Assembly (NCBI RefSeq): GCF_000430005.1
Contig: NZ_AUCY01000024.1
Coordinates: 1-55,531, forward strand
Direction: 5' to 3'
From: Desulfovibrio cuneatus DSM 11391
GTDB taxonomy: Bacteria; Desulfobacterota; Desulfovibrionia; Desulfovibrionales; Desulfovibrionaceae
Length of the DNA stretch: 55,531 nucleotides
Shown here: piece after piece, positions 1-45,824 of the stretch
How the letters are laid out: each line of letters opens with the position of its first letter
Position numbering within the stretch: position 1 is the first letter of the stretch
Translations under genes and position numbers: made by a program
Notes under the pieces: generated by a model
Told to the model about the DNA's origin: nothing
What the model saw: only the letters and a program-made list of their open reading frames with translations
The model's database searches: none

Positions 1-300
1 GTTTCTTGCGGCGAAGCGGGAATATGCACCCACTCGGCCTTGTTGTCAACATCTTTTTTTTAATTTCTTAAAAAACTTTTTCGACAACCTGCTGGAATCA
101 CTCCCGGCCCGCCACCCGTTTCCGTGCGGCGAAGGGGAGTTATGTCTCTTTTCACTCCCGGTGTCAATCACTTTTTTAAAAAAGTTTTAACACCCCGCCG
201 GACCCCGTCCTGGCCCGCCACCTGCTTCCAAATGGCGAAGGGGGTTTATGCACCCTTTCCTACCCAGAGTCAACTGATTTTAACGAGAAAATCACTGTTT
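1..300. repeat. Degenerate tandem repeat, about 110-bp units
   Basis: Three units begin near 1, 118 and 224. Each opens with a variant of GTTTC..GCGGCGAAG and continues through G-rich sequence and a TGTCAA motif into an A/T-rich palindrome of T and A runs. The first two end in GGCCCGCCACC. The spacing is 117 and 106 bp, so the copies have diverged. The third is incomplete. I see no gene between 1 and 598. A possible -10 box TATAAT lies at 485-490 without a good -35. Confidence 0.6.
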
Positions 301-598
301 TTCAAATTACTTTTTTGCCTGTACACTGGCAGAACAGCTTCCGCACCACAGCCCGGCATTCCTCCTGTACCTTAAGGGATACCCAACAGTGGCTTCATAC
401 CGTATACTCCCATTGAGCGTTGCCCTGGGCTGCTCGCTGGAGAGCCCGTAAAAGAAGAGGCCCACAAAATTTACAGTGAAACAATATAATGATACATCTG
501 TGCCCTTGCCCTGCCTTGCCTGGATATTGTAATACATGCCTGCACGGCACCTGGGCACTTGCGCACTGCCCTTTTACATAGCACACAAAGGAGCTTTC

Positions 599-1123
599 AT
601 GAAAACAACAGCCAGCCTTACCCTTTTTCTTTGCCTTATGTGTTCTGCCGCATTGGCCGCTGAACCCACCACAAAGCTTGATGACGGTTCCATGAAAGCA
701 GTCATGGGTGACCTTTTGAACACCGGAAAGGGCATCCTTTCTGAATTAGACAAGAACCTTGGCAATACCAAGCAAGACCCCCCAGCCCCAGACAACATGA
801 CAGTGGTGGCCACCAATGAAGAGTTTGCCAAGGTCGCCAAAGTTTCTGTGCTCAAAGTGGAAGAACCCACACGCGGGCAAGTAACGGCAACCCTTGCCAT
901 TGCCAATGAAACAGACGCACCCATTCGCATCACCAACCTTTCCCAACTGGGCGCAGTCATTCTGCTTGATAGCGACAGCTTTGCTTACCCTCTGAGCGAA
1001 CCTTCACTGGCAGAAGACGTGGTGGTTCTGCCACAGTCAAAAACACGGGCTCGCTTCACCTTTACGGGAATTGAAGGCAAGCCCGCAAGGGTTCGCTTTA
1101 TGGGGGCAGAAGCCAAAATTTAA
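599..1123 (+). CDS. Exported protein of unknown function
   Basis: This 174-residue protein starts at the ATG following an AAGGAG ribosome site; an upstream in-frame start would lack one. Residues 1-20 form a signal peptide with a hydrophobic core and an AxA-type end (AALAAEP), so the product is probably periplasmic. The C-terminal 100 residues look beta-rich (VTATLAIANETDAPIRI, then a Leu-Asp-Ser pattern), which resembles Ig-like DUF4352-type domains, but this is only a pattern resemblance. A terminator follows, so it appears monocistronic. No specific function can be given. Confidence 0.75.
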   Translation: MKTTASLTLFLCLMCSAALAAEPTTKLDDGSMKAVMGDLLNTGKGILSELDKNLGNTKQDPPAPDNMTVVATNEEFAKVAKVSVLKVEEPTRGQVTATLAIANETDAPIRITNLSQLGAVILLDSDSFAYPLSEPSLAEDVVVLPQSKTRARFTFTGIEGKPARVRFMGAEAKI

Positions 1124-1196: not shown

Positions 1197-1236
1197 AAAA
1201 ACCCCTTGCAAGGATATCTCCCTGCAAGGGGTTTTG
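1197..1236 (+). terminator. Rho-independent terminator
   Basis: The arms AACCCCTTGCA and TGCAAGGGGTT form a strong stem followed by a short T-rich stretch. It lies about 75 bases after the stop of the exported protein and faces the convergent gene at 1314-1598. Confidence 0.75.
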
Positions 1237-1313
1237 TTGCTTTGCATACAGGCACAGCGTGCGGGTACGCCCCGCGAAGAGTATGAACACATTGCCTGGT
1301 AGCCTAGCTCACC

Positions 1314-1598
1314 CTACTGCTTGCTGTTTTTCCGGGCTTCATCTTTAAGGAGAGCGCGGGCAACGTTTGCATCGTACAAATCAAGGGGGGTGCTATGCCC
1401 TTTTTCTTCCTTATACAATCCTGCGGCTGCTTCAATAATGGCAAAAGAAAGCCAGCCGTGCTTTTCCCACACTTCCGGATGGGTGCTGCGCCACAGGCGG
1501 AACTCTATGCCATTTGTGCCTTCCCGCACATAAACACGGGTTTGCAGGTCTGTGGGGTCTGGGTGATAATACAGTCCATTTGCGTCTTTCATGGCCAT
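1314..1598 (-). CDS. Small conserved hypothetical protein
   Basis: This is a 94-residue soluble protein without a signal peptide or membrane segment. It is rich in Trp, Tyr and charged residues (EFRLWRSTHPEVWEKHGW). The start could be the first Met (1598) or the second, two codons later. It stands alone between the terminator at 1197-1236 and the dsr promoter region on the opposite strand. I do not recognise a domain. Conservation in other Desulfovibrionaceae is expected from its composition but was not tested. Confidence 0.6.
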   Translation of the reverse strand: MAMKDANGLYYHPDPTDLQTRVYVREGTNGIEFRLWRSTHPEVWEKHGWLSFAIIEAAAGLYKEEKGHSTPLDLYDANVARALLKDEARKNSKQ

Positions 1599-1879: not shown

Positions 1880-3193
1880 ATGGCGAAACACGCAACTCCC
1901 AAGCTCGACCAGCTTGAGTCTGGGCCGTGGCCCAGCTTTGTGTCTGACATCAAGTGGGAGGCTGAAAACCGGGCTAAGAATGCAGACAAGGTAAATTACC
2001 AGATTCCTGTAGACTGCCCAGCAGACTTGCTTGGTGTACTTGAACTTTCCTACAACGACGGGGAAACCCACTGGAAACACGGCGGTATCGTTGGTGTGTT
2101 CGGTTACGGCGGCGGTGTTATTGGCCGTTACTGTGACCAGCCCCAAGCTTTCCCCGGTGTTGCTCACTTCCACACGGTTCGCGTGAACCAACCTGCTGCG
2201 AAGTACTATTCCTCCGAATTTCTGCGCCAGATTTGTGACCTTTGGGACATGCGCGGCTCCGGCCTGACCAACATGCACGGCTCCACCGGCGACATCGTGC
2301 TGCTTGGTACCCAAACCGCCCAGCTTGAAGAAATCTTCTTTGAACTGACCCACAAGTATAACACTGACCTTGGTGGCTCCGGCTCCAACTTGCGTACACC
2401 GGAAAGCTGCCTTGGCACTTCCCGTTGCGAATACGCATGCTACGACACCCAGGACGTGTGCTACCAACTTACCCTGGACTACCAGGATGAACTGCACCGC
2501 CCTGCGTTCCCCTACAAGTTCAAGTTCAAGTTTGACGGTTGCCCCAACGGTTGCGTAGCTGCCATTGCACGCTCCGACTTTTCCGTTATTGGCACCTGGA
2601 AAGACGACATCAAAATTGACCAGGCAGCTGTAAAAGGCTACGTGGGCGGCGAGTTTGCTCCTAACGCAGGTGCACACTCCGGCCGCGACTGGGGCAAGTT
2701 TGACATTCAGGCAGAAGTTGTTGACCTGTGCCCAACAAAGTGCATGAAGTGGGACGGCTCCAAGCTTTCCATTAACAACAGAGAATGCACACGTTGCATG
2801 CACTGTATTAACACCATGCCCCGCGCCCTGCACATTGGTGACGAACGCGGTGCTTCCATTCTGGTAGGCGCAAAAGCCCCCGTACTTGACGGCGCACAAA
2901 TGGGTTCCCTGCTTGTGCCTTTCATTGAAGTAAACCAGCCCTATGATGAAATCAAAGAAGTCATCGAAAAGATTTGGGACTGGTGGATGGAAGACGGCAA
3001 AAACCGTGAGCGCCTGGGTGAAACCATTCGCCGCCTCTCCTTCCAGCGTTTGCTTGAAGTGACAGAAATAGCGCCACAGGCTGTACACGTGAAAGAACCC
3101 CGCCACAACCCCTACATCTTCTGGAAAGAAGAAGAGGTTCCTGGCGGCTTTGACCGTGACATCGAAGCTTACCGCACAAGACACCAGAGATAA
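1880..3193 (+). CDS. dsrA: Dissimilatory sulfite reductase, alpha subunit
   Basis: This 437-residue protein is the alpha subunit of the cytoplasmic sulfite reductase that takes six electrons to reduce sulfite in the last stage of sulfate respiration. Four cysteines for the siroheme-linked [4Fe-4S] cluster are at 177, 183, 221 and 225, and ferredoxin-domain cysteines are at 284, 303, 306 and 309. These are the positions known for Desulfovibrio DsrA. The start ATG follows a GGAGGT ribosome site and gives the typical N-terminus MAKHATPKLDQLESGPWPS. dsrB follows after 15 bases, so the two are co-transcribed and probably stoichiometric. The length is normal and nothing is missing. Confidence 0.98.
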   Translation: MAKHATPKLDQLESGPWPSFVSDIKWEAENRAKNADKVNYQIPVDCPADLLGVLELSYNDGETHWKHGGIVGVFGYGGGVIGRYCDQPQAFPGVAHFHTVRVNQPAAKYYSSEFLRQICDLWDMRGSGLTNMHGSTGDIVLLGTQTAQLEEIFFELTHKYNTDLGGSGSNLRTPESCLGTSRCEYACYDTQDVCYQLTLDYQDELHRPAFPYKFKFKFDGCPNGCVAAIARSDFSVIGTWKDDIKIDQAAVKGYVGGEFAPNAGAHSGRDWGKFDIQAEVVDLCPTKCMKWDGSKLSINNRECTRCMHCINTMPRALHIGDERGASILVGAKAPVLDGAQMGSLLVPFIEVNQPYDEIKEVIEKIWDWWMEDGKNRERLGETIRRLSFQRLLEVTEIAPQAVHVKEPRHNPYIFWKEEEVPGGFDRDIEAYRTRHQR

Positions 3194-3208
3194 GGGGGGA
3201 GGAGAACT

Positions 3209-4354
3209 ATGGCATTCGTATCTTCCGGGTACAATCCCGACAAGCCCATGGAGAACCGCATTACTGACATCGGTCCTCGCAAATATGATCAGTTCTACCC
3301 GCCCTTTATTGCCAAAAACAAGGGCAAGTGGCTGTACCACGAAATCCTTGAGCCCGGCGTGCTTATGCACGTGGCAGAAAGCGGCGACAAAGTATACACC
3401 GTGCGTTGCGGTACTGCACGCCTCATGAGCGTTTCCCTGATTCGCGAAATGTGCGACATTGCAGACAAGTATTGCCAGGGCTTCCTGCGCTTTACTACCC
3501 GCAGCAACGTTGAATTCATGACTGACAATGCAGACACCTTGAAGGCCCTGAAGGCCGACCTAGCTGGACGCAAATTCAGCGCGGGTTCCAACAAGTTCCC
3601 CGTGGGTGGTACCGGCGCCGGTATTACCAACATCATTCACACCCAGGGCTGGGTACACTGCCACACCCCCGCAACCGACGCTTCCGGCCCGGTTAAGGCT
3701 GTGATGGACGAAGTGTTCGCAGACTTCCAGGCACACCGCATGCCTGCCCCCCTGCGCATTTCCCTGGCTTGCTGCATTAACATGTGTGGTGCTGTGCACT
3801 GCTCTGACATCGGCCTGGTGGGCATTCACAGAAAGCCCCCCATGATCGACCACGAGTGGGCTGACCGCCTGTGTGAAATTCCGCTGGCTGTTTCTGCTTG
3901 CCCCACCGCAGCAGTACGCCCCACAAAAGTGGATTACAAAGGCGAAAAGCACAACTCCATTGCTATTAAAAACGAACGCTGCATGTACTGCGGTAACTGC
4001 TACACCATGTGCCCAGCCCTGCCCATTTCCGATGGCGAAGGCGACGGCGTTGCTATCATGGTAGGCGGCAAGGTTTCCAACCGCATCAGCATGCCCAAGT
4101 TCTCCAAGGTTGTTGTGGCATACATTCCCAACGAAACTCCACGCTGGCCTACACTGACCAAGACCGTGAAGCACATTGTTGAAGTGTACGCTGCCAACGC
4201 CAACAAGTATGAACGCCTGGGCGAATGGGCAGAACGCATTGGTTGGGAGCGTTTCTTCTCCCTTACCGGCCTTACGTTTACCCACCACCTCATCGACGAC
4301 TTCCGCGAACCCGCGTACTACACCTGGCGTCAAAGCACCCAGTTCAAGTTCTAG
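3209..4354 (+). CDS. dsrB: Dissimilatory sulfite reductase, beta subunit
   Basis: This 381-residue protein is the catalytic partner of DsrA in the alpha2beta2 sulfite reductase. Cysteines at 151, 188, 189 and 193 ligate the siroheme-coupled cluster ([12 protein letters not shown]). Those at 231, 258, 261 and 264 belong to the ferredoxin insert ([15 protein letters not shown]). This pattern equals that of Desulfovibrio DsrB, so an active enzyme is expected. A GGGGAGGAG ribosome site precedes the ATG. A very stable hairpin follows the stop and separates it from dsrD. Confidence 0.98.
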
Positions 4355-4369
4355 GCGCATACAGTAATT

Positions 4370-4394
4370 CCCCCGGGTGCCATGCGCCCGGGGG
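4370..4394 (+). other. Strong hairpin between dsrB and dsrD
   Basis: The arms CCCCCGGGTGC (4370-4380) and GCGCCCGGGGG (4384-4394) pair over 11 positions with one G-U pair around a 3-base CAT loop. There is no T-run after it, so it is not a normal terminator. It sits 15 bases after the dsrB stop and 22 bases before the dsrD start. A role in mRNA protection or processing is likely. Confidence 0.6.
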
Positions 4395-4416
4395 GCCTGC
4401 GCAAAGGGGATTTATC

Positions 4417-4641
4417 ATGAATGAAGAACAACAAATTGTTGTCGATTTTCTCACAGGGAAAACCGGCAAAAGCAAATTCTACTTTAACGACTTTCTGCCC
4501 CTTTTCCCCGGAAAAGGCCCCCGCGATGTGAAGAAAATTCTCACATCTCTGGTGAATGCAGAAAAACTTGAATTCTGGTCTTCTGGCAGCACCACCATGT
4601 ATGGTTTGAAAGGTGCTGGCAAGCCGGATACGGACGCTTAA
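4417..4641 (+). CDS. dsrD: DsrD, small winged-helix dissimilatory sulfite reductase accessory protein
   Basis: This 74-residue protein begins MNEEQQIVVDFLTGK at an ATG preceded by AAAGGGG. DsrD family members are small winged-helix proteins encoded directly after dsrAB in sulfate reducers, and work on the family links them to stimulation of sulfite reductase activity. The sequence contains the typical helix KGPRDVKKILTSLVNAEKLEFW. It is the third gene of the operon and is closed by a terminator just after its stop. Confidence 0.95.
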   Translation: MNEEQQIVVDFLTGKTGKSKFYFNDFLPLFPGKGPRDVKKILTSLVNAEKLEFWSSGSTTMYGLKGAGKPDTDA

Positions 4642-4664
4642 GCCAGGCTTTGCCTTTGGCTTGC

Positions 4665-4700
4665 AGCGCACAGTGGTTACCATCTGTGCGCTTTTTTTTT
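4665..4700 (+). terminator. Terminator of the dsrABD operon
   Basis: The arms AGCGCACAG (4665-4673) and CTGTGCGCT (4684-4692) form a perfect 9-bp stem that runs directly into a run of T. It separates dsrABD from the cobyrinate synthase gene. Confidence 0.9.
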
Positions 4701-4730
4701 CGCTTTATCACATCACACACTACAGCAGCT

Positions 4731-4889
4731 TCACTTTAAAAATCTACATTGAATTTCCATGCAGCACATGAGTTTTTCAAAGTACCAAACTGTTCTACTA
4801 TCATTAAACGACACGCTCCGCGGGTGTCCGCGTTGCGTCCACCGAGCAATTTCAAAGTGAAATTGCTCTAGCACACACTGAAGGTTTCC
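4731..4889 (+). repeat. Leader of cbiA with hairpin and partial family A repeat
   Basis: Bases around 4805-4823 (ACGACACGCTCCGCGG) match a conserved part of family A repeats at 23858-24010 and 40214-40364. A perfect 11-bp inverted repeat follows, with arms GAGCAATTTCA (4844-4854) and TGAAATTGCTC (4858-4868) and a 3-base loop. It lies 21 bases before the cbiA start. No cobalamin riboswitch consensus was seen. The hairpin may act on initiation or stability of the cbiA mRNA. Confidence 0.5.
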
Positions 4890-6338
4890 ATGTCTTTTCC
4901 GCGCCTTGTTATAGCTGGCCTTTCGGGCGGTTCTGGCAAAACCCTTGTCAGCCTTGGGGTAACCCGTGCCCTTTGCCAAACCGGGCACCGTGTTAAAACG
5001 TTTAAGAAAGGCCCGGATTATATTGATTCCGCATGGCTTGCCAGCGCCGCAGGCACAGCCCAGGGCAACCTGGACCCCTACTTTTGCCCGCCAGAGCAGC
5101 TTGTGGCCCTGTTCATGGCCGGGGCACAGGGGCACGACATAAGCCTGATTGAAGGCAACCGTGGCCTGTTCGACGGTGTGGATACAGCAGGCACCGCTTC
5201 CACCTCTGCCCTGGCCCGCTCCCTGGGGGCCCCGGTGGTGCTGGTAATGGACTGCACAAAAATGACCCGCACGGCAGCCGCCATTGTTCTTGGCTGTACA
5301 ATGCTGGAGCCAGAACTGCATTTGGCAGGGGTAATTCTGAACCGCACAGGCACGGAAAGGCAGCGCACCCTCATCACCCAGGCCGTGGAAACCCTTACAG
5401 GTGTGCCCGTACTGGGGGCCTTGCCCCGGCATACCCTGTTTCACATTGAAGAGCGCCACATGGGCCTGGCCTATATGGAAGAAGAAGCCGCTGCCGTGCG
5501 CCTGGACGCCTTGGCAGAGTTGCTGGCAACCCATGTGAACATGCCGCAACTGCTGGAAATTGCCCGTAACGCCCCTGCCCTTTGCCCTGCTTGGGAACCA
5601 AAAGAAGCTGCCCAGAGTGGGGCCGAACCACAGCAGACAATTACCGTTGCTTCAAAAGCATTCTCCGTCATGCAGCCACGCATTGGCTATGTGCATGATT
5701 CTGCCCTGTGGTTCTACTACCAGGAAAATTTTGATGCCCTCAAGGCAGCAGGGGCACAGCTCGTTCCCTTGAGCATTCTGGACGAAACCCCGTGGCCCAG
5801 CCTTGACGGGCTGTACCTTGGTGGTGGCGTGCCGGAACAATATGCGGCCCAACTGGCCCAGGCCAAGAGCATTCGTGCCCATGTATATACCCTGGCCAGC
5901 CAGGGAATGCCCATATACGCAGAATGCGGTGGGTTCATGTACCTGTGCAGCACCTTGCACACCCAAGAAGGGGCCTTCCCCATGGCTGGAGTTTTCCCCG
6001 GCTCCGTAACAATGAGTCCGCGCCCCAACGGCCTTGGCTATGTGGAAGCAACCGTTTCTGGCTACACCCCCTTCTTTCCGGCAGGACTTTCTTTCAAGGG
6101 CCATGAATTCCACTTTTCCAGTTACACCCCCGCAGCACAAGAAGCACCTGCCCATATCGTTACCCTGCACAAAGGCAAAGGCATGACGGGTGGGCACCCC
6201 GCCGGGGCTGATGGCCTGTGCCGCTGGCAAACGCATGCAGGCTATACCCATATTTATGCCCCGGCAGTGCCCTGCTGGGCGCCCAATTTTGTGCACATGG
6301 CCCATACTTGGGGCACACAGCAGCGCAAGGGGCGCTAA
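4890..6338 (+). CDS. cbiA: Cobyrinate a,c-diamide synthase
   Basis: This 482-residue cytoplasmic enzyme amidates cobyrinic acid at the a and c side chains with glutamine and ATP, in cobalamin synthesis; in sulfate reducers the related siroheme amidation has also been assigned to such a gene next to dsr. The N-terminal P-loop domain starts GLSGGSGKT at about residue 10. The C-terminal class I glutamine amidotransferase domain carries its nucleophile Cys in AECGGFMYL at about residue 350. The gene is often called cobB in Desulfovibrio. It overlaps the next gene by one base (TAATG), so the two are translationally coupled. Confidence 0.93.
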   Translation: MSFPRLVIAGLSGGSGKTLVSLGVTRALCQTGHRVKTFKKGPDYIDSAWLASAAGTAQGNLDPYFCPPEQLVALFMAGAQGHDISLIEGNRGLFDGVDTAGTASTSALARSLGAPVVLVMDCTKMTRTAAAIVLGCTMLEPELHLAGVILNRTGTERQRTLITQAVETLTGVPVLGALPRHTLFHIEERHMGLAYMEEEAAAVRLDALAELLATHVNMPQLLEIARNAPALCPAWEPKEAAQSGAEPQQTITVASKAFSVMQPRIGYVHDSALWFYYQENFDALKAAGAQLVPLSILDETPWPSLDGLYLGGGVPEQYAAQLAQAKSIRAHVYTLASQGMPIYAECGGFMYLCSTLHTQEGAFPMAGVFPGSVTMSPRPNGLGYVEATVSGYTPFFPAGLSFKGHEFHFSSYTPAAQEAPAHIVTLHKGKGMTGGHPAGADGLCRWQTHAGYTHIYAPAVPCWAPNFVHMAHTWGTQQRKGR

Positions 6339-6940
6339 TGCAACAACTCACTCTTTCCCCCCTGGCACAACAAAAGCGCGCCACGTATTGCTTACCAGCC
6401 CACTCCCCAGCCTGGCTGCACCCACTCTTTGATGCGTATGCCACGCTGGAGGCTGCCCAGGAACAGCAACTGGCCCAAACACCACGCACCCCCGCCTGCC
6501 ATAAAGGCTGCACCGCCTGTTGCACCCACCTTATTCCTGCCCTCCCTGCAGAAATTCTGGGCATTCGCTTTTACCTGAACCATGGTATACCTGCGGAACT
6601 ACGCCATACATTGCGCAACAATTTGAACCACGTTCCCGAAGGCACTTGCCCCTTCCTGCACCTGGGGGGGTGTAGCATTTATACGATAAGGCCTATGGTG
6701 TGCCGCCGCTACCTTGTTTTTTCCCAGCCCTGTGCCCCCGGAGAACACCCAGAACACACACGCCCAGATGATATTTTCCAGGCATCTCCTGCCCATTACC
6801 TTTCCGCCCTTGCCCACACCTTTCCCATTTACCAGTCCTTGGGTTTGGCCGCTCCAGGCGACACCCCGACCCTGCCGTTTTTTTTACAACAAACCGTTTT
6901 GCTTGCCTCGCTTGACTGGCATGAATCCATAAGCGCATAG
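6338..6940 (+). CDS. YkgJ-family cysteine-cluster protein
   Basis: This 200-residue protein starts at the ATG that overlaps the cbiA stop. It has the YkgJ pattern, CHKGCTACC at about residues 52-60, followed by CPFLHLGGCSIY and RPMVCRRY. This cysteine set is thought to bind zinc or an iron-sulfur cluster, but the biochemical role of the family is not known. It has no signal peptide. The coupling to cbiA suggests a link with tetrapyrrole or sulfur metabolism, which is inference from position only. Confidence 0.8.
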   Translation: MQQLTLSPLAQQKRATYCLPAHSPAWLHPLFDAYATLEAAQEQQLAQTPRTPACHKGCTACCTHLIPALPAEILGIRFYLNHGIPAELRHTLRNNLNHVPEGTCPFLHLGGCSIYTIRPMVCRRYLVFSQPCAPGEHPEHTRPDDIFQASPAHYLSALAHTFPIYQSLGLAAPGDTPTLPFFLQQTVLLASLDWHESISA

Positions 6941-7176
6941 GCTAGCTCTTTTGCACAGCGCCAGACCTGGGCCTGTTATGACATTTAACAAGACTGTTTT
7001 ACTCAATTTTCGCACTGTACAACACCTCAATTCTTGTAAAGCATGGTACAGCAACCATGCGGCCATGTAGTTATCCACTAAATTTCACAAAGTATTTTAC
7101 GAGCCATCGCACCTATTCATCTCAAAGCATTAAATATGACCATCAATCATAGATTATATTGCCGACTCAACTTTAT

Positions 7177-7192
7177 TGTGATTTTTTTAACA
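7177..7192 (+). promoter_or_regulatory. CRP/FNR-family-like operator
   Basis: The sequence TGTGA-N6-TAACA differs in one position from the symmetrical TGTGA-N6-TCACA core used by CRP/FNR-family regulators. Its centre lies roughly 48 bases upstream of the expected transcription start, a plausible activator position. Sulfate reducers have several such regulators, including HcpR, and which one could bind is unknown. Confidence 0.35.
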
Positions 7193-7197
7193 TAAGC

Positions 7198-7226
7198 TTG
7201 TCATATTGAATGCCATCATGTATTAT
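7198..7226 (+). promoter_or_regulatory. Sigma70-type promoter of the DUF169 gene
   Basis: TTGTCA (7198-7203) and TATTAT (7221-7226) are separated by exactly 17 bases. The pair lies 28 bases upstream of the ATG at 7255. Confidence 0.6.
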
Positions 7227-7254
7227 ACGGCACCTAACATCTAAGGAGGAAGAT

Positions 7255-8070
7255 ATGCAGTTAACTTACTCTTCTATGCAAGAAACCCTTATGCGTGAAT
7301 TACGGTTATACCATCACCCCATTGCCGTGTACTTCCTGACTTCTGACGAAATGGTCGAGCAATTTAAAAAGAACACAGACTACTCCATTCCCGTAAAACC
7401 CCTCACATACTGCCAGTGGGAAATTGCTGCCCGTATGCAGGCAAAAACCATTCTTGGCACCAAGGAACACCTGGGCTGCACAAACGGTCAAGTGAGTTTT
7501 GGCTGGCGTGAAATTGATGATAAGGAAGTAAAATCTCAAAGCAAATACTGTGTTGACCAGGCACAGGCCGAGCGTTTTTTGCGTTCCAAGCCCAAAATGC
7601 CTTTGAATAGCGTGAAGGCAGTGGCCATTGGCCCCCTGGGTACAGCCCCCATGCAGCCTGATGTGGTACATTTTTATTGCGACAACTTACAGTCGTACCA
7701 CCTGGCTGTAGACTACATGGCCGGAACAGACACCCACCCCCTGCGCCCCATGGTAACCATGAGCTCTTCGGCGTGCGGCGGTTCTGTATTTAGCCACCTG
7801 GAACAAACGTTCAACATGTGCCCGGCTTGCTCTGGCAGCTACAATGCAGGCAAAACAGAGCGCGGTGAAGTGAACGTATTCATTCCTGGCCCACATATTG
7901 AAGCCACGGTTAAGCGCTTGCTACAGCGCATTCACAACAGCGGCTCCAGCTCCATTACACGACCTGGCGACCCATTCCCCGGCGCAGACATTTGCAAAAA
8001 CTGCCCCATTATCATCTTCAAGAAAGAAGGCGATACCCCTGAGGAATGCGCTGGCTGTACCAAACAATGA
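7255..8070 (+). CDS. DUF169 family protein
   Basis: This 271-residue soluble protein starts at the ATG behind a perfect AAGGAGG ribosome site. The sequence fits the DUF169 family: an N-terminal segment HHPIAVYFL, a central TYCQWEIAARM with a conserved Cys, the motif SSSACGG, and a C-terminal cysteine set (MCPACSG, ICKNCPI, ECAGC) that could bind metal or an iron-sulfur cluster. The family is common in anaerobes and archaea and has no established function. It has its own promoter and possible CRP/FNR-type site, and it lies between dsr/cbiA genes and a sulfite-exporter-like gene, so a role in anaerobic sulfur metabolism is possible. Confidence 0.8.
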   Translation: MQLTYSSMQETLMRELRLYHHPIAVYFLTSDEMVEQFKKNTDYSIPVKPLTYCQWEIAARMQAKTILGTKEHLGCTNGQVSFGWREIDDKEVKSQSKYCVDQAQAERFLRSKPKMPLNSVKAVAIGPLGTAPMQPDVVHFYCDNLQSYHLAVDYMAGTDTHPLRPMVTMSSSACGGSVFSHLEQTFNMCPACSGSYNAGKTERGEVNVFIPGPHIEATVKRLLQRIHNSGSSSITRPGDPFPGADICKNCPIIIFKKEGDTPEECAGCTKQ

Positions 8071-8122
8071 TTTACAAATTCCGATTTTTCTTGCATCATC
8101 CCGCTAGTGAAATATTTGGTTT

Positions 8123-8153
8123 AACCCCGGTTTGGAGTACCAAGCCGGGGTTT
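8123..8153 (+). terminator. Hairpin between DUF169 and TauE/SafE genes
   Basis: The arms AACCCCGG-TTTGG and CCAAG-CCGGGGTT form a strong stem with a 4-base loop. The T-run after it is weak (TTTGGTTC), so it may be a partial terminator that lets some readthrough into the exporter gene 40 bases on. Confidence 0.5.
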
Positions 8154-8194
8154 GGTTCATTACCATACTCCCCGCTTGAACAGGAGAACGACAC

Positions 8195-9433
8195 ATGACC
8201 TTTTTTTTAGGCAAGCACCGGAAACTCGCGGCCATAGCCCTTACCCTTGTGCTTTCACTTACAAGTGTGGCTGCGCTTGCGCAAAATGGCACACAACCTG
8301 AGGCGACTGCACCCATGACTGAAGCCGCAGCACCCCAGGCTACGGCACAACCTGCTACGGCCCAACCCGTTGCAGCCAAAGAACAGCCCGCCGACAGGCT
8401 GGGTGCAGCTATTGCTGCCGCTGCCAAAGAGGGCAAACTGGACATGACAGCCGAACCCGGCTTTCTTGGTATTCCCGGTGCCCCCCATGTGAACCCTGTT
8501 CTGGCATTTGCCTGGGCCTTGTGGGTAGGCTGGATATTCTCCACTGTAGGTGCATTTGGCGGCGTTATGGCAGGCGTGGGCCACATGTCTGTGTTCGGCC
8601 TTGGGCATTATGCCAGCTCTTTTGGCAAAGGGGCCCCCCTGAACAAAGTTGTTACCGACTCCCTGCGCGTTTCCAACCAGTGGCTGGTGGGTTGCTCAGG
8701 CGCGGTTTCTTCCTTCAAGTATGCAAAGCTCGGCCGCATTGTATTCCCCCTGGCCATTGCCCTTGGCATTGGTTCCATTGTGGGTTCATGGCTCGTGCCC
8801 ACCCTGACACAGGGCAAAATTTCCTTTAAAGAATACCAGGGCTTTTTCGGCTTGTTCGTGTTGGCCCTTGGTTGCTACCTGTTTTATGAAACAACCCCCG
8901 CAGGCCAGTCCAAAAAGAAGAAAGCAGGCGAGGCTGTTAAAGCCTTTGAAGCAGCCGTGAAATCTGGCGGCAGCCAAGCACAGACCGGCGTGAAGGTTAT
9001 CAGCATCAGCGCAAGCCGCGTTGTGTTTACCTTCTGCGGTGTGGAATTTGCATTTTCCACCCTGCTACCCATTATCGGCGGTTTTATCATCGCCTCTGTT
9101 GCGGCCTTCCTCGGTGTGGGCGGCGGCTTCCTGTTGGTGCCCTTCCTTACCAGCATTTCCCAGCTTCCCATGTACCTGGCTGCGGGCACCTCTGCCCTGG
9201 CTGTGCTCATTGGCATGATTACGTCCATCTCTACCTTCATGATGGGCGGCACTCCTGTTGACTGGTCTTTGGTAGGCCTTGAACTGGTGGGTATTGTTAT
9301 TGGCTCCTGGGTTGGCCCCATGACAGCCAAATACCTTTCAGACAAGTGGCTGAAGCGTATTTTCATTATTCTTGCCCTGTATGTGGGCATTGATTACGTA
9401 CTGCAAGGGTTCTTCCACATTAAAATGTTGTAG
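8195..9433 (+). CDS. TauE/SafE-family sulfite/anion exporter
   Basis: This 412-residue inner membrane protein belongs to the TauE/SafE family, whose members export sulfite, sulfoacetate or related anions. An N-terminal hydrophobic segment (residues 12-30) is followed by an Ala/Pro/Gln-rich stretch to about residue 70. Then come two groups of membrane segments, each with the family's Gly-rich pattern (STVGAFGGVMAGVGHM and SVAAFLGVGGGFLLVPF), split by a charged Lys-rich loop near 235-255. The start follows AACAGGAG. The place in a sulfur block suggests a role in sulfite or sulfate movement, but the substrate is unproven. Confidence 0.88.
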   Translation: MTFFLGKHRKLAAIALTLVLSLTSVAALAQNGTQPEATAPMTEAAAPQATAQPATAQPVAAKEQPADRLGAAIAAAAKEGKLDMTAEPGFLGIPGAPHVNPVLAFAWALWVGWIFSTVGAFGGVMAGVGHMSVFGLGHYASSFGKGAPLNKVVTDSLRVSNQWLVGCSGAVSSFKYAKLGRIVFPLAIALGIGSIVGSWLVPTLTQGKISFKEYQGFFGLFVLALGCYLFYETTPAGQSKKKKAGEAVKAFEAAVKSGGSQAQTGVKVISISASRVVFTFCGVEFAFSTLLPIIGGFIIASVAAFLGVGGGFLLVPFLTSISQLPMYLAAGTSALAVLIGMITSISTFMMGGTPVDWSLVGLELVGIVIGSWVGPMTAKYLSDKWLKRIFIILALYVGIDYVLQGFFHIKML

Positions 9434-41033: not shown

Positions 41034-44000
41034 ATGTTAAAGCGTGCCCTGGTATTATGCTTTTTCTGGGTGTGTGCAAGCACCAGTGCTTTTGCCATTC
41101 CGCTGGTAGTAGATAATGTAACCAGCATGCAGCCCCTGCTGCCTGAACTGCTGTGGCAGGCAGACCCGGATGGGCAGCAAACCATTGAAAGCATAAGCAC
41201 CCCGGAAGCGCAAGCAGGCTTTGCCTCTTTGCGTAACGGCTTTCCATTGCGCGCCACAGGCCCGGTGTGGCTCAAGCTTTCCTTGCTTAAGGCCCAGCGT
41301 TCCGCCTTAACCCCCGCCCCCCAGGGGGGCACCCCGCTTGTTAGCATTAACCTTGGCAGGTTTAACGGGGGCAATGCCCAGGTTTTCCTGCGTGAAACAG
41401 GTGAAGGCGTGGTGGCCCACACCCGCTGGACACGTACAGACGTTGGCCCCAGTGAAAACCTTGTTATTCCTGCCTTTGGCGCAACGCCCCAAACCATTTT
41501 TATGCGCCTGCCCGAAGTGCCCGGCCTGTGGTTTCAACCCACGGTACAACCGCAAGAAAACGTAACCGCCCCCCTGTTGCCGCCAGACCAGCTTTTGCCA
41601 GGGCTGGTGGTGCTGGCCTGCCTTGTGTGCCTGCTGCGTGCCTTGAAGGAGCGCTCCGCATGGCGCTTCTGGGCAGCGGTTTTTCTTGGGTTTGTCCTGG
41701 CAGACATCATGCTGCCCCTGCCCCTGCTGCATGAAACATTATCATACGCCCAACTGCCCGCCATGCTGGCCCCCGGCCTTTCCCTGCTACTGCTCCCACA
41801 CCTGGGGCGTGCCATGCTGGGCACCAATAAATCAGCCCCGGTGCAAGACATACTCCTTTCAGGATTTTCCCTAGTGGGCATTGCAGCAGCCCTTATGCCC
41901 CTGGTGCCTGGCTACCAGTGGCTTACCCGGCTGTTTCCCCTGTGGCCCCTGCTGCTTTTCCCCTTGTTGCCCGTGTGTTTTTGGGCACTGCAAGACAAAC
42001 GCCGTGGTGCCCTTGCCTTTACCGGTATTTGCATAATGCCCTTTATTGGCGCAGTCCTTTCTTTTTGGGCAATGGAAGCAACCCTGCCAAGCCCCATGGC
42101 AGTGCAAGGCAGCATGTGGGGGCTTGCCATTGGTGGCCTGAGCCTAGCCCTTGTGCGCGGTCCGCATACAGCACGTTCCGCGGCCCAGCACACCCTTGGC
42201 TCGTCCTTCCCCCTGTTGCAGGAAGTGGAAGAAGGCGCAAGTGGTGCCCCTTCCCTGTTGCCGCAAAACAACCCATTCCCCTTGCTGCCCACGGCAAACA
42301 ACCAAAATGCCCCTGCCCAGCCAGGCCAAAGCCCTGCTGACAACACTAGCCAGGAAGACCAGGAAGATGCCGACCACATGCCCGGTGCCTCCCTTGAAGC
42401 GGCATTTTCCGCAACCCTTGCGGAACAGCAGGCTGCCCTTGCCCGCGCAAACACACCACAAGAACAAACCACCCCTGGCCACAACACAGGCAATGCCCCT
42501 GCACCCAGTGCAGAGGCTTCTGCCAGCGCAGGCGCTACCCAGGAAACCATTCTTTTTCCCCTGCCGGAAGACGTGCCCGCAGCACCCGAAGAAACGGGTA
42601 CTTTTGCCCCCAAGGTTGCCTCAACACCTACCGCTGCCATGGCTTCTGCTGCGCCCAGCGCAACAACACAGGCAAGCGCCCTGCCTGCTTCCACACCCCT
42701 GGGGGACACCAGCGCCGTGCAGCCCCGGCCTGTTGCGGCAACCCCCAAACAGCCCGCCCAGGCCAACAGGCATGAAGACAACACCCTTACCCTGGCCCAG
42801 GCGGCAAGCCATGCCAGCCTTGGCAGCCTTTTGGGGGACGAACCCTTAAGCATGGGCGCGGCCACACATGAAGCATCGCCTGAAGCTTCCCCAGCCTTGG
42901 GGTTACTGGGCTCGTCCCTTTCCATGCCAGCCTCCACCAATACCCGCACAGCCAAAAAATCGCCTGCCCAACCCGCTGCGGGGCAGCAAGGGCTGCACCT
43001 TGCCCCCAGTAACCAGCCGCTGCGCAAAACCCCACCCGCAGTTGTGGCCACCAGCACACCACTTTCCCAAAATGCCGACCACGCCAGGAAAGAGGCACTG
43101 CCAACACACGCATTGCCCCCCTTGGAAATGGCTGCCCCGCATAAGCCTGCTACAAATACCCCAGATGCAGAAAAATCTGGACAGAAAAAGCCTCCCCTGG
43201 AACTTCCAGCCCTGGACCTGCCACCCGCAGGAGCTTCCCGCAGTGCGGCAGGTTCCACCACAACGGAACGTTTGATGCAGGCCAAAGGCTTGACCCCCAA
43301 GGAGTACACTCCCAGCGGCCTGCAGGAAGACACCCTTTCCCCTGGCTTTGGCAGCGTTGGTGCCCTGCTAACCCCCAAGGCACCCCCACCCGCGCAGGCC
43401 CACAAGCCTGCCGCCACTGGTGCTGCAAAGGCGCAAGGGGCAGCACCAGTGCCAGCCCCTGCCAACGCCCCTGTGGCCCAGCAGCCAAGCAAAGAAGCTG
43501 CCCCCCAGCATACCCCTGCCTTGAGTATTTTTAACCTTACCAACATTATCAGGCGGGTAGACCATTCCCTTGAGCCACGCATCAAGCAAAAAGGCGTCAT
43601 CTTTTCCTGGGTGCTGGACCCGCGCCTGCCAACATTGCTCAAAGGTGACGCCTTTGGGCTCTACTCCACCCTTTCCGGCCTGCTTTCCGACTCCATTGAC
43701 GCCACAGACGCAGGCTTTGTGCAGCTTGCGGTGCGCCACATACATACCGAAAGCAACGGCCCGCTCATTCTTTCCTTCAGCATTACCGACACAGGCACGG
43801 AAAAGCGGCAGCTTGCCCACCAAGGCCAGGGGCAACACTTTGCCACAGCCAATGGCGGCAGCTTTACCGTGGAATACAGCCCCACCCACGGCCCCCTTAT
43901 TACCATGACAGCCCAGTTTGAACTGCCCACAGCCCTGGTGGAAACGCCGGGGAATAACGCGGTATCAATGAAAGCAGACACCAAAGAAACACCAGTACCT

Positions 44001-45824
44001 GCCGCAGCGCAAGCTCGGGAAAAAACCGCAGCACAAGGGCCTGCACCAAGTGTGGGCAAAGTGCCTCTTTCAAAGCGGCTGGCCAATGCTGCCCAGGCCA
44101 GGCAGGCTGCCTCGGAAACCACACCTTCCGCAACAGCACAGGCGGAAGCAAACACCCCTGCGCCAGAAAATACCAAGGCAGAGCCACAGGCAGAGGCCAA
44201 GGCAGCCCCGGAAGCCACGCCACACAAGGCACCCCCTGTTGCACAGCCTGAAGCAATAACAAAGGCAACAGTTGAGCCGGAAACTGAACCCAAACCCAAG
44301 AAAGGGGCAGCGCCCAAGCCCGAACAAAAGGCCATGCCACAAAAAGCGGTAACGCCCCGGACAACGGCACAGCAGAAGCCAACAAGCGAGACAGAGACGG
44401 TAGACGACGCACAGCCTGCACCACAGGCCTCTGCGCAGGTTGTAGTGCAGCCAGCTTCCCCTGTTGCACTGGCGCAGGAGCCACTACAACATCCCGCAAC
44501 GGCACGGGTGGTGCAACTTGCCAGCGTTAAGGCCGGGCAAGAAGCACAAGCGGCTGCCAGCAATGGGGCACAGCACAGCGCACCCCCAGACGGAACAGCG
44601 ACTGGTAATGTGGAGGCAACAGCTACCGTACAGGTACAGATTCTTGTTTCGGATATGACCACAAGTAACCTGCGCCTTATTTCCCATTACCTGAACCAGC
44701 ACAGTTTGCCGCACACGGAATGCAAAGGCGTGCAGGCCCTTGTGAACGCCTGCACCAATGAACCGGCAAACCTCATAATTGTCGATGCAGACATGCCGGA
44801 AGACGACCTGCAAAAAATGCTGCACAAGGTGCACAGCGTGGAAGCCGACAACAACTGGCCCCCCGCCGCCGTGCTTGCCCTTATCAGCCACCAGGGGCAA
44901 GAAGAACGCATGCGCGCCATAGGCTGCAACCACATTTTGCAAAAGCCGTTTGGCAAGGATGAATTTGTAAACATGGTACACAAGGCTGTTCCAACCTTGC
45001 ATAATGGTACCGTGAACAAAAATACATCCACAGCGCCACAATCCACGGCCACCCCTGGGCCAGACATGCCCACCCACTCTACTGAACCGTACATACAGCG
45101 CCTGCTTGCTGGCGGCATGGCCGAAGCCCACCCCAACAGCACCCATGAACCAGCCAAGGAAACAGCAAAAGGCTTAAGCACCCGTGCTGCCATTGCCGGT
45201 GTGCTGGAACGGACAGGTGCTATTTCACCCGGTTCTGGCCATGCGGAAACAGCGGCAGCGGCAGCGGCAATGACAGCCAGTAAAATAGCCCAGCAAAGGG
45301 AAAAAAAGCTGGAAGCGTTGCACAAGGGCCGCACCAAAAGCAACAGCCCGGCAGTGCGTAAAATTACGGTAGTACAAAAAACCAATTCCCCGGAACACAG
45401 CACACCGCGCCCAGGGGCTGTGCGCGTGCAACGCAACACCACACCAGTCCAGCCGAAAAGCGCGGCAATTCCCCTGCCGGGCATTGAAGGGGCCACCATG
45501 AACGCCCAGATGCTGCCCCTGGTGCCAGGGCTTATCCTTTCCCTGCGCGACGCCCTGAGCATGTGCGAAAAAGCTGCCCAGGACAATGCCATGCCCGCCA
45601 TGCAGGAAGCCATGGAAACCATCCGCCAGAAGGCAGCGGTGTTCCAACTGGAGAAACTGGAGAAAATGGCTTCTTGCGTACAGCGTGCCGCAGCAGCCAA
45701 TGATAGTGAAGCTGTGACCACACTCATGGACGACATGCGCTCTTTTGCGTTACGCCACATTACGGCTGTGGAAGAATGCTTTAAAAACTATCTGGCAGAA
45801 ACAGCGGAAGGCGCCAATGGGTAA
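41034..45824 (+). CDS. Giant membrane hybrid-kinase-like protein with decayed kinase and HPt domains
   Basis: This 1596-residue protein has a signal peptide (1-22), a periplasmic domain like 7TMR-DISMED2 (23-185) and about seven membrane helices (186-376). A disordered Ala/Pro/Gln/Thr-rich linker runs to about 828. A histidine-kinase-type ATPase domain (829-968) follows, then a second linker, a receiver domain (1198-1323), a third linker and a helical HPt-like end (1490-1596). The ATPase domain lacks the usual N-box Asn ([13 protein letters not shown]), and no phospho-acceptor His domain precedes it. The receiver keeps its Asp1251 (VDADMP) and the Lys in LQKPF. The HPt-like end has Glu1528 where His is expected. 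Phosphate transfer within the protein looks impossible; the receiver could still be a target. kdsB overlaps its end. Confidence 0.75.

Follow-up and report, generated by a model that had tools for sequence, protein, structure and literature searches.

A giant membrane protein of Desulfovibrio cuneatus is probably a catalytically dead hybrid sensor kinase

A stretch of 55,531 nucleotides from Desulfovibrio cuneatus DSM 11391 (contig NZ_AUCY01000024.1, positions 1 to 55,531; the window) encodes a very large membrane protein, hereafter the giant, which is the sole full-length copy in its genome; two further matches are weak and fall on the ATPase segments of other kinases. A periplasmic domain of the 7TMR-DISMED2 type and a seven-helix transmembrane (7TM) region are followed by a kinase-type ATPase segment, a receiver and an HPt-like end (Table 1). 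They are tied together by three linkers, in which Ala, Pro, Gln and Thr make up 41-57% of the residues as against 24-33% in the folded parts, in keeping with the long Ala/Pro/Gln linkers described in a first-pass annotation made from the sequence alone. Here the giant is interpreted, with moderate confidence, as a catalytically dead hybrid sensor kinase that serves as a phosphate-independent scaffold or decoy on another phosphorelay.

Table 1. The giant, its modules and key sites, and the gene directly upstream (positions in the window).
Feature	Position	Strand	Basis or remark
Giant protein gene	41034..45824	+	ATG start, 1596 residues, frame open throughout
7TMR-DISMED2-like periplasmic domain	41112..41558, residues ~27-175	+	family Pfam matches; beta-rich model; best Foldseek match RetS sensor domain
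7TM region	41583..42152, residues ~184-373	+	seven long helices in model; Pfam in 19/30 members; hydropathy
Linker 1	42189..43511, residues 386-826	+	50% Ala+Pro+Gln+Thr; no DHp at its end, where expected
Degenerate HATPase_c segment	43512..43934, residues ~827-967	+	profile and residue comparison
N-box Asn site, Asp886	43689-43691	+	alignment to relatives
G1 Asp919, kept	43788-43790	+	G1 Asp-x-Gly kept, second Gly lost
Linker 2	43935..44627, residues 968-1198	+	57% Ala+Pro+Gln+Thr
Pseudo-receiver	44628..44999, residues ~1199-1322	+	Pfam, profile, key-site residues
Met1208 at DD2 (second acidic site)	44655-44657	+	Met in 11/11 of source genus
Asp1251 (receiver Asp), kept	44784-44786	+	invariant in 11/11 of source genus
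Lys1304, kept	44943-44945	+	invariant in 11/11 of source genus
Linker 3	45000..45452, residues 1323-1473	+	41% Ala+Pro+Gln+Thr
HPt-like four-helix bundle without acceptor His	45453..45821, residues ~1474-1596	+	Pfam in relatives, predicted fold
Glu1528 at HPt His site	45615-45617	+	alignment to relatives
TPR protein gene, 213 residues	40379..41020	+	Pfam TPR_1 E 2.3e-18; directly upstream of the giant, 13-nucleotide gap

On its own, the sequence of the giant yields a Pfam receiver (residues 1203-1315, expect value E 2.5e-5, below the curated cut-off), a 7TMR-DISM_7TM match at E 0.08 (0.084), likewise below cut-off, and no match to HATPase_c, HisKA or HPt; NCBIfam adds fragments of hybrid kinases of the BarA, TorS and RcsC types, which cover the ATPase and receiver segments with scores far short of the respective cut-offs. 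The first-pass annotation proves to be a good reading, but relatives are required to prove each module, as the single sequence gives too little. The closest set comes from the source genus, that of the D. cuneatus window genome (labels of other genera, such as g11, g14 and g17, were assigned by the search tool). Nine of the 12 other genomes searched in it carry an orthologue, either complete or cut short; the remaining three are 67, 86 and 65% complete, and the absence may reflect gene loss or an assembly gap. With the window's own protein and G220, recovered in the order search, the source-genus set comprises 11 proteins, which are 41-45% identical to the giant in the N-terminal part (59% over the short stretch of G011), 37-41% in the ATPase segment, 30-40% in the receiver and 33-42% in the HPt-like end.

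A scan of genome contigs with the single protein produced 25 pattern matches and no relative; an alignment-based scan of named genomes found 11 relative loci, ten in Desulfovibrio sp. and one in a Desulfovibrionaceae bacterium. Among 297 Desulfovibrionales genomes, 126 were matched by an N-terminal profile of the genus and 140 by a 30-row profile. Clear relatives occur in 122 of them, in 16 genera (weakest E 5e-36, a truncated copy); 18 further genomes, lying across a score gap at E 1.6e-23 or weaker, were taken to hold other DISM proteins. A search of the phylum matched 30 of 297 genomes, eight in the same family and the other 22 at 1.3e-22 or weaker. The core proteins read number 86, 84 of them from as many of the 122 genomes (window included) plus G002 and G010; five distant proteins, three from genus g17 and two from one f4 genome, served as outgroup.

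All four modules are present, each at 20 bits or more, in 71 of the 86 relatives, so the architecture of the giant is more than chance; a frameshifted or chimeric reading frame was rejected on the strength of this shared module set. Four of the 15 members without the full set run off the ends of their contigs (G011, G276, G280 and G250). The ATPase segment is absent in G251, G157, G110 and G191 (4/86), and the HPt-like domain is undetectable in genus g25 (4/4) and in G143 and weak (13 bits) in G115. The last of these is peculiar in its size: its open frame (L085, 3877-12762) has 2962 codons, with a very long stretch ahead of the sensor part. Another reduced member, G124 (L133, open frame 2255-4480), consists of sensor/7TM and HPt-like parts only; its receiver is gone, and a 24-residue scrap of the ATPase still scores.

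The sensor had been called 7TMR-DISM-like, which the family bears out. 7TMR-DISMED2 is found in 23 of 30 members (Pfam, E <= 1, best 7.5e-10; the giant itself has no match), and 7TMR-DISM_7TM (PF07695) in 19 of 30 at the same threshold (best 1.9e-8). A model of the N-terminal part, with a predicted local distance difference test score (pLDDT) of 89, consists of a beta-rich periplasmic domain and seven helices; Foldseek ranks the RetS sensor domain first, at E 1.5e-3 (none below 1e-3) and a TM-score of 0.53 by target length. A profile of this part gave nothing credible against solved structures. The two hallmarks of 7TMR-DISM receptors, a DISMED2-type extracellular domain and a 7TM region, are both present.

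Among solved structures, the ATPase profile finds histidine kinases at E 3e-11 and RetS chains at E 3e-9. What is missing is the chemistry. As the first-pass annotation held, there is no His phospho-acceptor domain: the giant gives no HisKA match and carries no DHp/HisKA acceptor motif, and the motif occurs in none of 76 proteins from the 15 genera outside g14 (one of them, G250, is cut by a contig end before the acceptor region). The idea of an acceptor His concealed within the linker was rejected, the motif being absent from these same 76; a looser motif, run over 50 proteins, returned three unconvincing matches (G175, G179 and G117). The ATP lid and G2 box, whose loss the earlier description had not included, are gone in the giant, which therefore lacks the full N, G1, G2 and lid set of a HATPase, and the G2 motif is found in 0 of 71 ATPase segments outside g14. 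The N-box Asn, correctly noted as absent in the giant, is not the defining lesion: it is kept in eight of these 71 segments, six of them among the 11 of the source genus, where acceptor motif and G2 motif are missing throughout (11/11). The Asp of G1, an adenine contact in this fold, survives in 67 of the 71, as well as or less well than several glycines and aromatic and hydrophobic residues; it may be structural, or it may mark a retained ligand site.

The receiver profile matches solved receivers at E 7e-13, and the register can be seen where HMMER aligns it with a canonical receiver. Of 131 receiver positions, 17 are invariant in the source genus, Asp1251 and Lys1304 among them. The first acidic site (DD1) is Asp1207 (Asp or Glu in 11/11), the second (DD2) is Met, and the Thr site is Ile1284, so that two of the five residues of a canonical receiver (DD, D, T, K) are missing. 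According to Bourret et al. (PMC12632262), the second acidic residue binds metal directly, and a receiver lacking any of the five is a pseudo-receiver. With Met at DD2 in 11/11, the module falls under this definition, which makes phosphate uptake from another kinase less likely. Judged by its residues, the kept receiver, earlier described with Asp1251 and Lys intact, is better called a pseudo-receiver with preserved Asp; the Asp and Lys are indeed kept, but the site around them is less intact than that description suggested. Across the family, the Asp is found in 36 and the Lys in 30 of 84 receivers, and DD, D and K together in eight (four from g14, three from g18, one from g46).

At the C terminus, Pfam Hpt is matched by 19 of 25 members (E <= 10, best 1e-5), with the segment of the giant at 0.041. 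The end is modelled as a four-helix bundle of the HPt fold (pLDDT 94), for which Foldseek ranks HPt domains first (best E 1e-2, none below 1e-3), as does VIA-align (Z 14.2, root-mean-square deviation 1.9, 105 residues aligned); the profile of the segment found no HPt among solved structures. The acceptor His is absent from all 77 family members, g14 included (0/9), in agreement with the proposed replacement by Glu1528. A shifted His was also considered: four of the 77 have one no more than five residues away, but in none does it occupy the site itself. Conservation of both Asp1251 and Glu1528 had been named as support for the earlier description; the former is invariant in the source genus but not in the family, and the site of the latter holds Ser, Ala or Asn in the other nine source-genus members reaching it. 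The findings that could have overturned the earlier description, namely intact N and G boxes, a His acceptor in the linker or a His at the HPt site, are absent from the giant.

The origin of this arrangement can be read from genus g14, where the acceptor motif (SHDLRTPL or SHDLQSPL), N-box Asn and G1 are kept in nine of ten proteins. G2 follows the strict pattern in eight and a near form in G088; the tenth protein, G157, has no ATPase segment. Three g14 proteins that were scanned score 73-78 bits for HATPase_c (cut-off 26.4) and 28-50 bits for HisKA (cut-off 26.9). The g14 proteins share the modules of the giant and, in 10/10, an adjoining TPR gene. The g17 kinases stand further apart: the two readable to the end carry a complete relay (DISM, 7TM, HisKA, ATPase, receiver and HPt with its His), PAS-like inserts are seen by eye, and the TPR neighbour is missing (0/3). 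Since nine of ten g14 members have acceptor domain, N-box and G1, the giant is a decayed hybrid kinase. In a tree of the N-terminal part (90 rows, G011 excluded as too short, rooted on the five outgroup rows), the first split separates the ten g14 rows (99/93) from 75 rows in which the acceptor motif is missing (branch support 100/97), so that a single loss of the kinase core plus a separate loss in G157 suffices; the drawn midpoint root lies elsewhere, with weak support (89/60), and long branches, which may attract each other, lead to the outgroup and to some of the g14 rows. Such comparisons show that the ancestor was a genuine hybrid kinase, in which DISM sensor and 7TM region were joined to DHp, ATPase, receiver and an HPt-like domain.

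The g14 proteins have an oddity of their own: six of the ten (L092, L093, L094, L101, L103 and L104) have Ala at the receiver Asp site, and in five of these six the acceptor motif, N-box and G1 are all in place; a kinase of this kind would have to work with a different receiver or with none.

The ratio of non-synonymous to synonymous substitution rates (dN/dS) was estimated for seven pairs among seven source-genus members. It amounts to 0.09-0.17 for the ATPase, 0.18-0.26 for the N-terminal part, 0.15-0.35 for the receiver, 0.05-0.37 for the HPt-like end and 0.29-0.55 for the linkers (the value 0.29 comes from a saturated pair with dS 2.65); the dead ATPase segment is lowest in five of the seven. 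On these estimates the folded modules are under purifying selection in the source genus, which implies that they are kept for a role not needing their chemistry. For this genus, the alignments and rates show that selection preserved the folded modules even as DHp, ATP lid and HPt His disappeared.

With its defining residues absent, the giant is a member neither of the histidine kinases nor of the canonical receivers nor of the functional HPts. As many related genera keep it, it probably signals by protein binding rather than by phosphate transfer, most likely in the following manner: the periplasmic DISM domain would sense an envelope or extracellular cue, perhaps together with the TPR protein encoded upstream, and the 7TM region would relay the change to the cytoplasmic side. 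There, pseudo-ATPase, pseudo-receiver and pseudo-HPt, on long flexible linkers, may bind components of another phosphorelay, thereby inhibiting, recruiting or retuning it, with the giant itself carrying no phosphate. Candidate relays for it to bind exist, as the genome encodes other HPt proteins (eight matches above the Pfam cut-off in seven open frames, the giant not among them). The scaffold or allosteric switch of the first-pass annotation is retained in so far as the giant has no phosphorelay of its own, whereas phosphate from another kinase has become the less likely option.

Several points weigh against the scaffold or decoy. RetS and DivL act via a kinase core that dimerises by DHp, which the giant lacks; no cytoplasmic module is universal, as ATPase, receiver or HPt-like domain is lost in some members; the selection test excluded the window's own, long-branch gene, and its pairs share genomes. 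The evidence for the HPt fold is moderate, since unrelated helical proteins reach Z 12.4, leaving a modest margin, and Foldseek attains E 1e-2 at best.

The preserved Asp also allows for a giant that is phosphorylated at Asp1251 by another kinase and works as an allosteric switch, the other modules being scaffold. The invariance of Asp1251 and Lys1304, retained in receivers otherwise only 30-40% identical to that of the giant, together with the acidic DD1, would fit such a role, as would DD, D and K in all three proteins of g18 and the one of g46. Yet the Met at DD2 and the Ile at the Thr site speak against it, and with the receiver Asp missing from more than half of the family receivers and from all 31 of g11, phospho-acceptance is not the common mechanism of the family; we regard this switch as unlikely. 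Somewhat less likely still is a cytoplasmic switch in which the degenerate ATPase binds a nucleotide or small molecule without turnover. It would account for a G1 Asp that persists where the N-box Asn is nearly always lost, and for the low dN/dS of the segment; other residues are, however, equally or better conserved, and the role of the Asp may thus be a structural one; moreover, ATP lid and G2 motif have disappeared, and a few members exist without any ATPase segment.

Plain decay, that is, a dying kinase whose cytoplasmic part has no function of its own, would fit the stepwise loss of catalytic residues, the fast-evolving linkers, the few members from which entire modules have gone and the long branch of the giant's own gene in the N-terminal tree. 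We consider it very improbable in the face of purifying selection on all modules in 7/7 pairs, frames that stay open over 983-2040 codons in the 71 members with all four modules and retention in 16 genera beside the TPR neighbour. If binding without phosphate is indeed what the giant does, a wider proposal may tentatively be made, although we would not hold it to be the likelier case: in the ancestor of 15 Desulfovibrionaceae genera, a whole multistep phosphorelay protein may have turned into a stable, phosphate-free class of receptors in its own right, with pseudo-ATPase, pseudo-receiver and pseudo-HPt as pure binding modules on flexible tethers, TPR-coupled and steering other phosphorelays.

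Among the closest known systems is RetS, which has a kinase core with DHp and receivers at its end. This 7TMR-DISM hybrid sensor, which down-regulates GacS, shares DISM sensor and 7TM region with the giant and differs in that the giant lacks DHp and ATP lid and ends in a pseudo-HPt. RetS of Pseudomonas aeruginosa is described as devoid of kinase activity and as exerting its effect on a different kinase (PMC5992135). By analogy, the giant might be an inhibitor of a partner kinase of the RetS type, a working model that the resemblance of the sensor part favours and the absence of DHp does not. DivL keeps a DHp-like region and has no DISM/7TM sensor, receiver or HPt. It resembles the giant in being kinase-like without catalysis and steers another kinase; DivL of Caulobacter is a non-catalytic pseudo-histidine kinase regulating CckA (PMC9491836, PMC12189002). 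The plant pseudo-HPts AHP6/PHP1 have an HPt fold without acceptor His, are not phosphorylatable and regulate phosphorelays negatively (PMC12115143); they are free-standing soluble proteins, whereas the pseudo-HPt of the giant forms the terminus of a membrane-bound receptor.

Histidine pseudokinases, pseudo-receivers and pseudo-HPts are each already known. All three in one membrane receptor, kept across 15 genera alongside a genus whose kinase core looks intact, were not found reported in the open-access literature, nor, judged by title among the papers listed, was any paper on the family of the giant, in Desulfovibrio or in Lawsonia intracellularis. To our knowledge, RetS and DivL, the known histidine pseudokinases, are isolated examples. 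In the present family, one syntenic gene displays the whole path, from the intact-looking core of g14 through a dead majority in 15 genera to a few members that retain the sensor with one or two modules, and allows one to ask what selection still preserves in a phosphorelay protein after its chemistry has been lost, and what the preserved parts bind.

The upstream TPR protein has a hydrophobic stretch near its N terminus, judged by eye to be a membrane anchor. A homologue lies directly upstream of the giant in 67 of 86 family members, or 67 of the 79 where room exists (seven of the 19 without it have fewer than 400 bases upstream, at contig ends), and beside none of the five outgroup proteins. 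In the source genus, the order PfkB kinase, TPR protein, giant, cytidylyltransferase (kdsB-like) is kept in nine of 11; the exceptions are at contig ends, G007 showing the downstream side only and G011 neither. The three source-genus genomes without the giant have no close homologue of the TPR protein, only two weak matches (E 3e-5 and 1e-4).

Scans of the window for tRNA genes and Rfam families came back empty. Over the linkers lie two long antisense open frames, 41912-43642 (-, 576 residues) and 43661-44662 (-, 333 residues), which are probably a by-product of the Ala/Pro-rich coding composition. An f4 genome (G073, L109) encodes tandem DISM hybrid kinases (3676-6690 and 6462-9329, -), each with two receivers.

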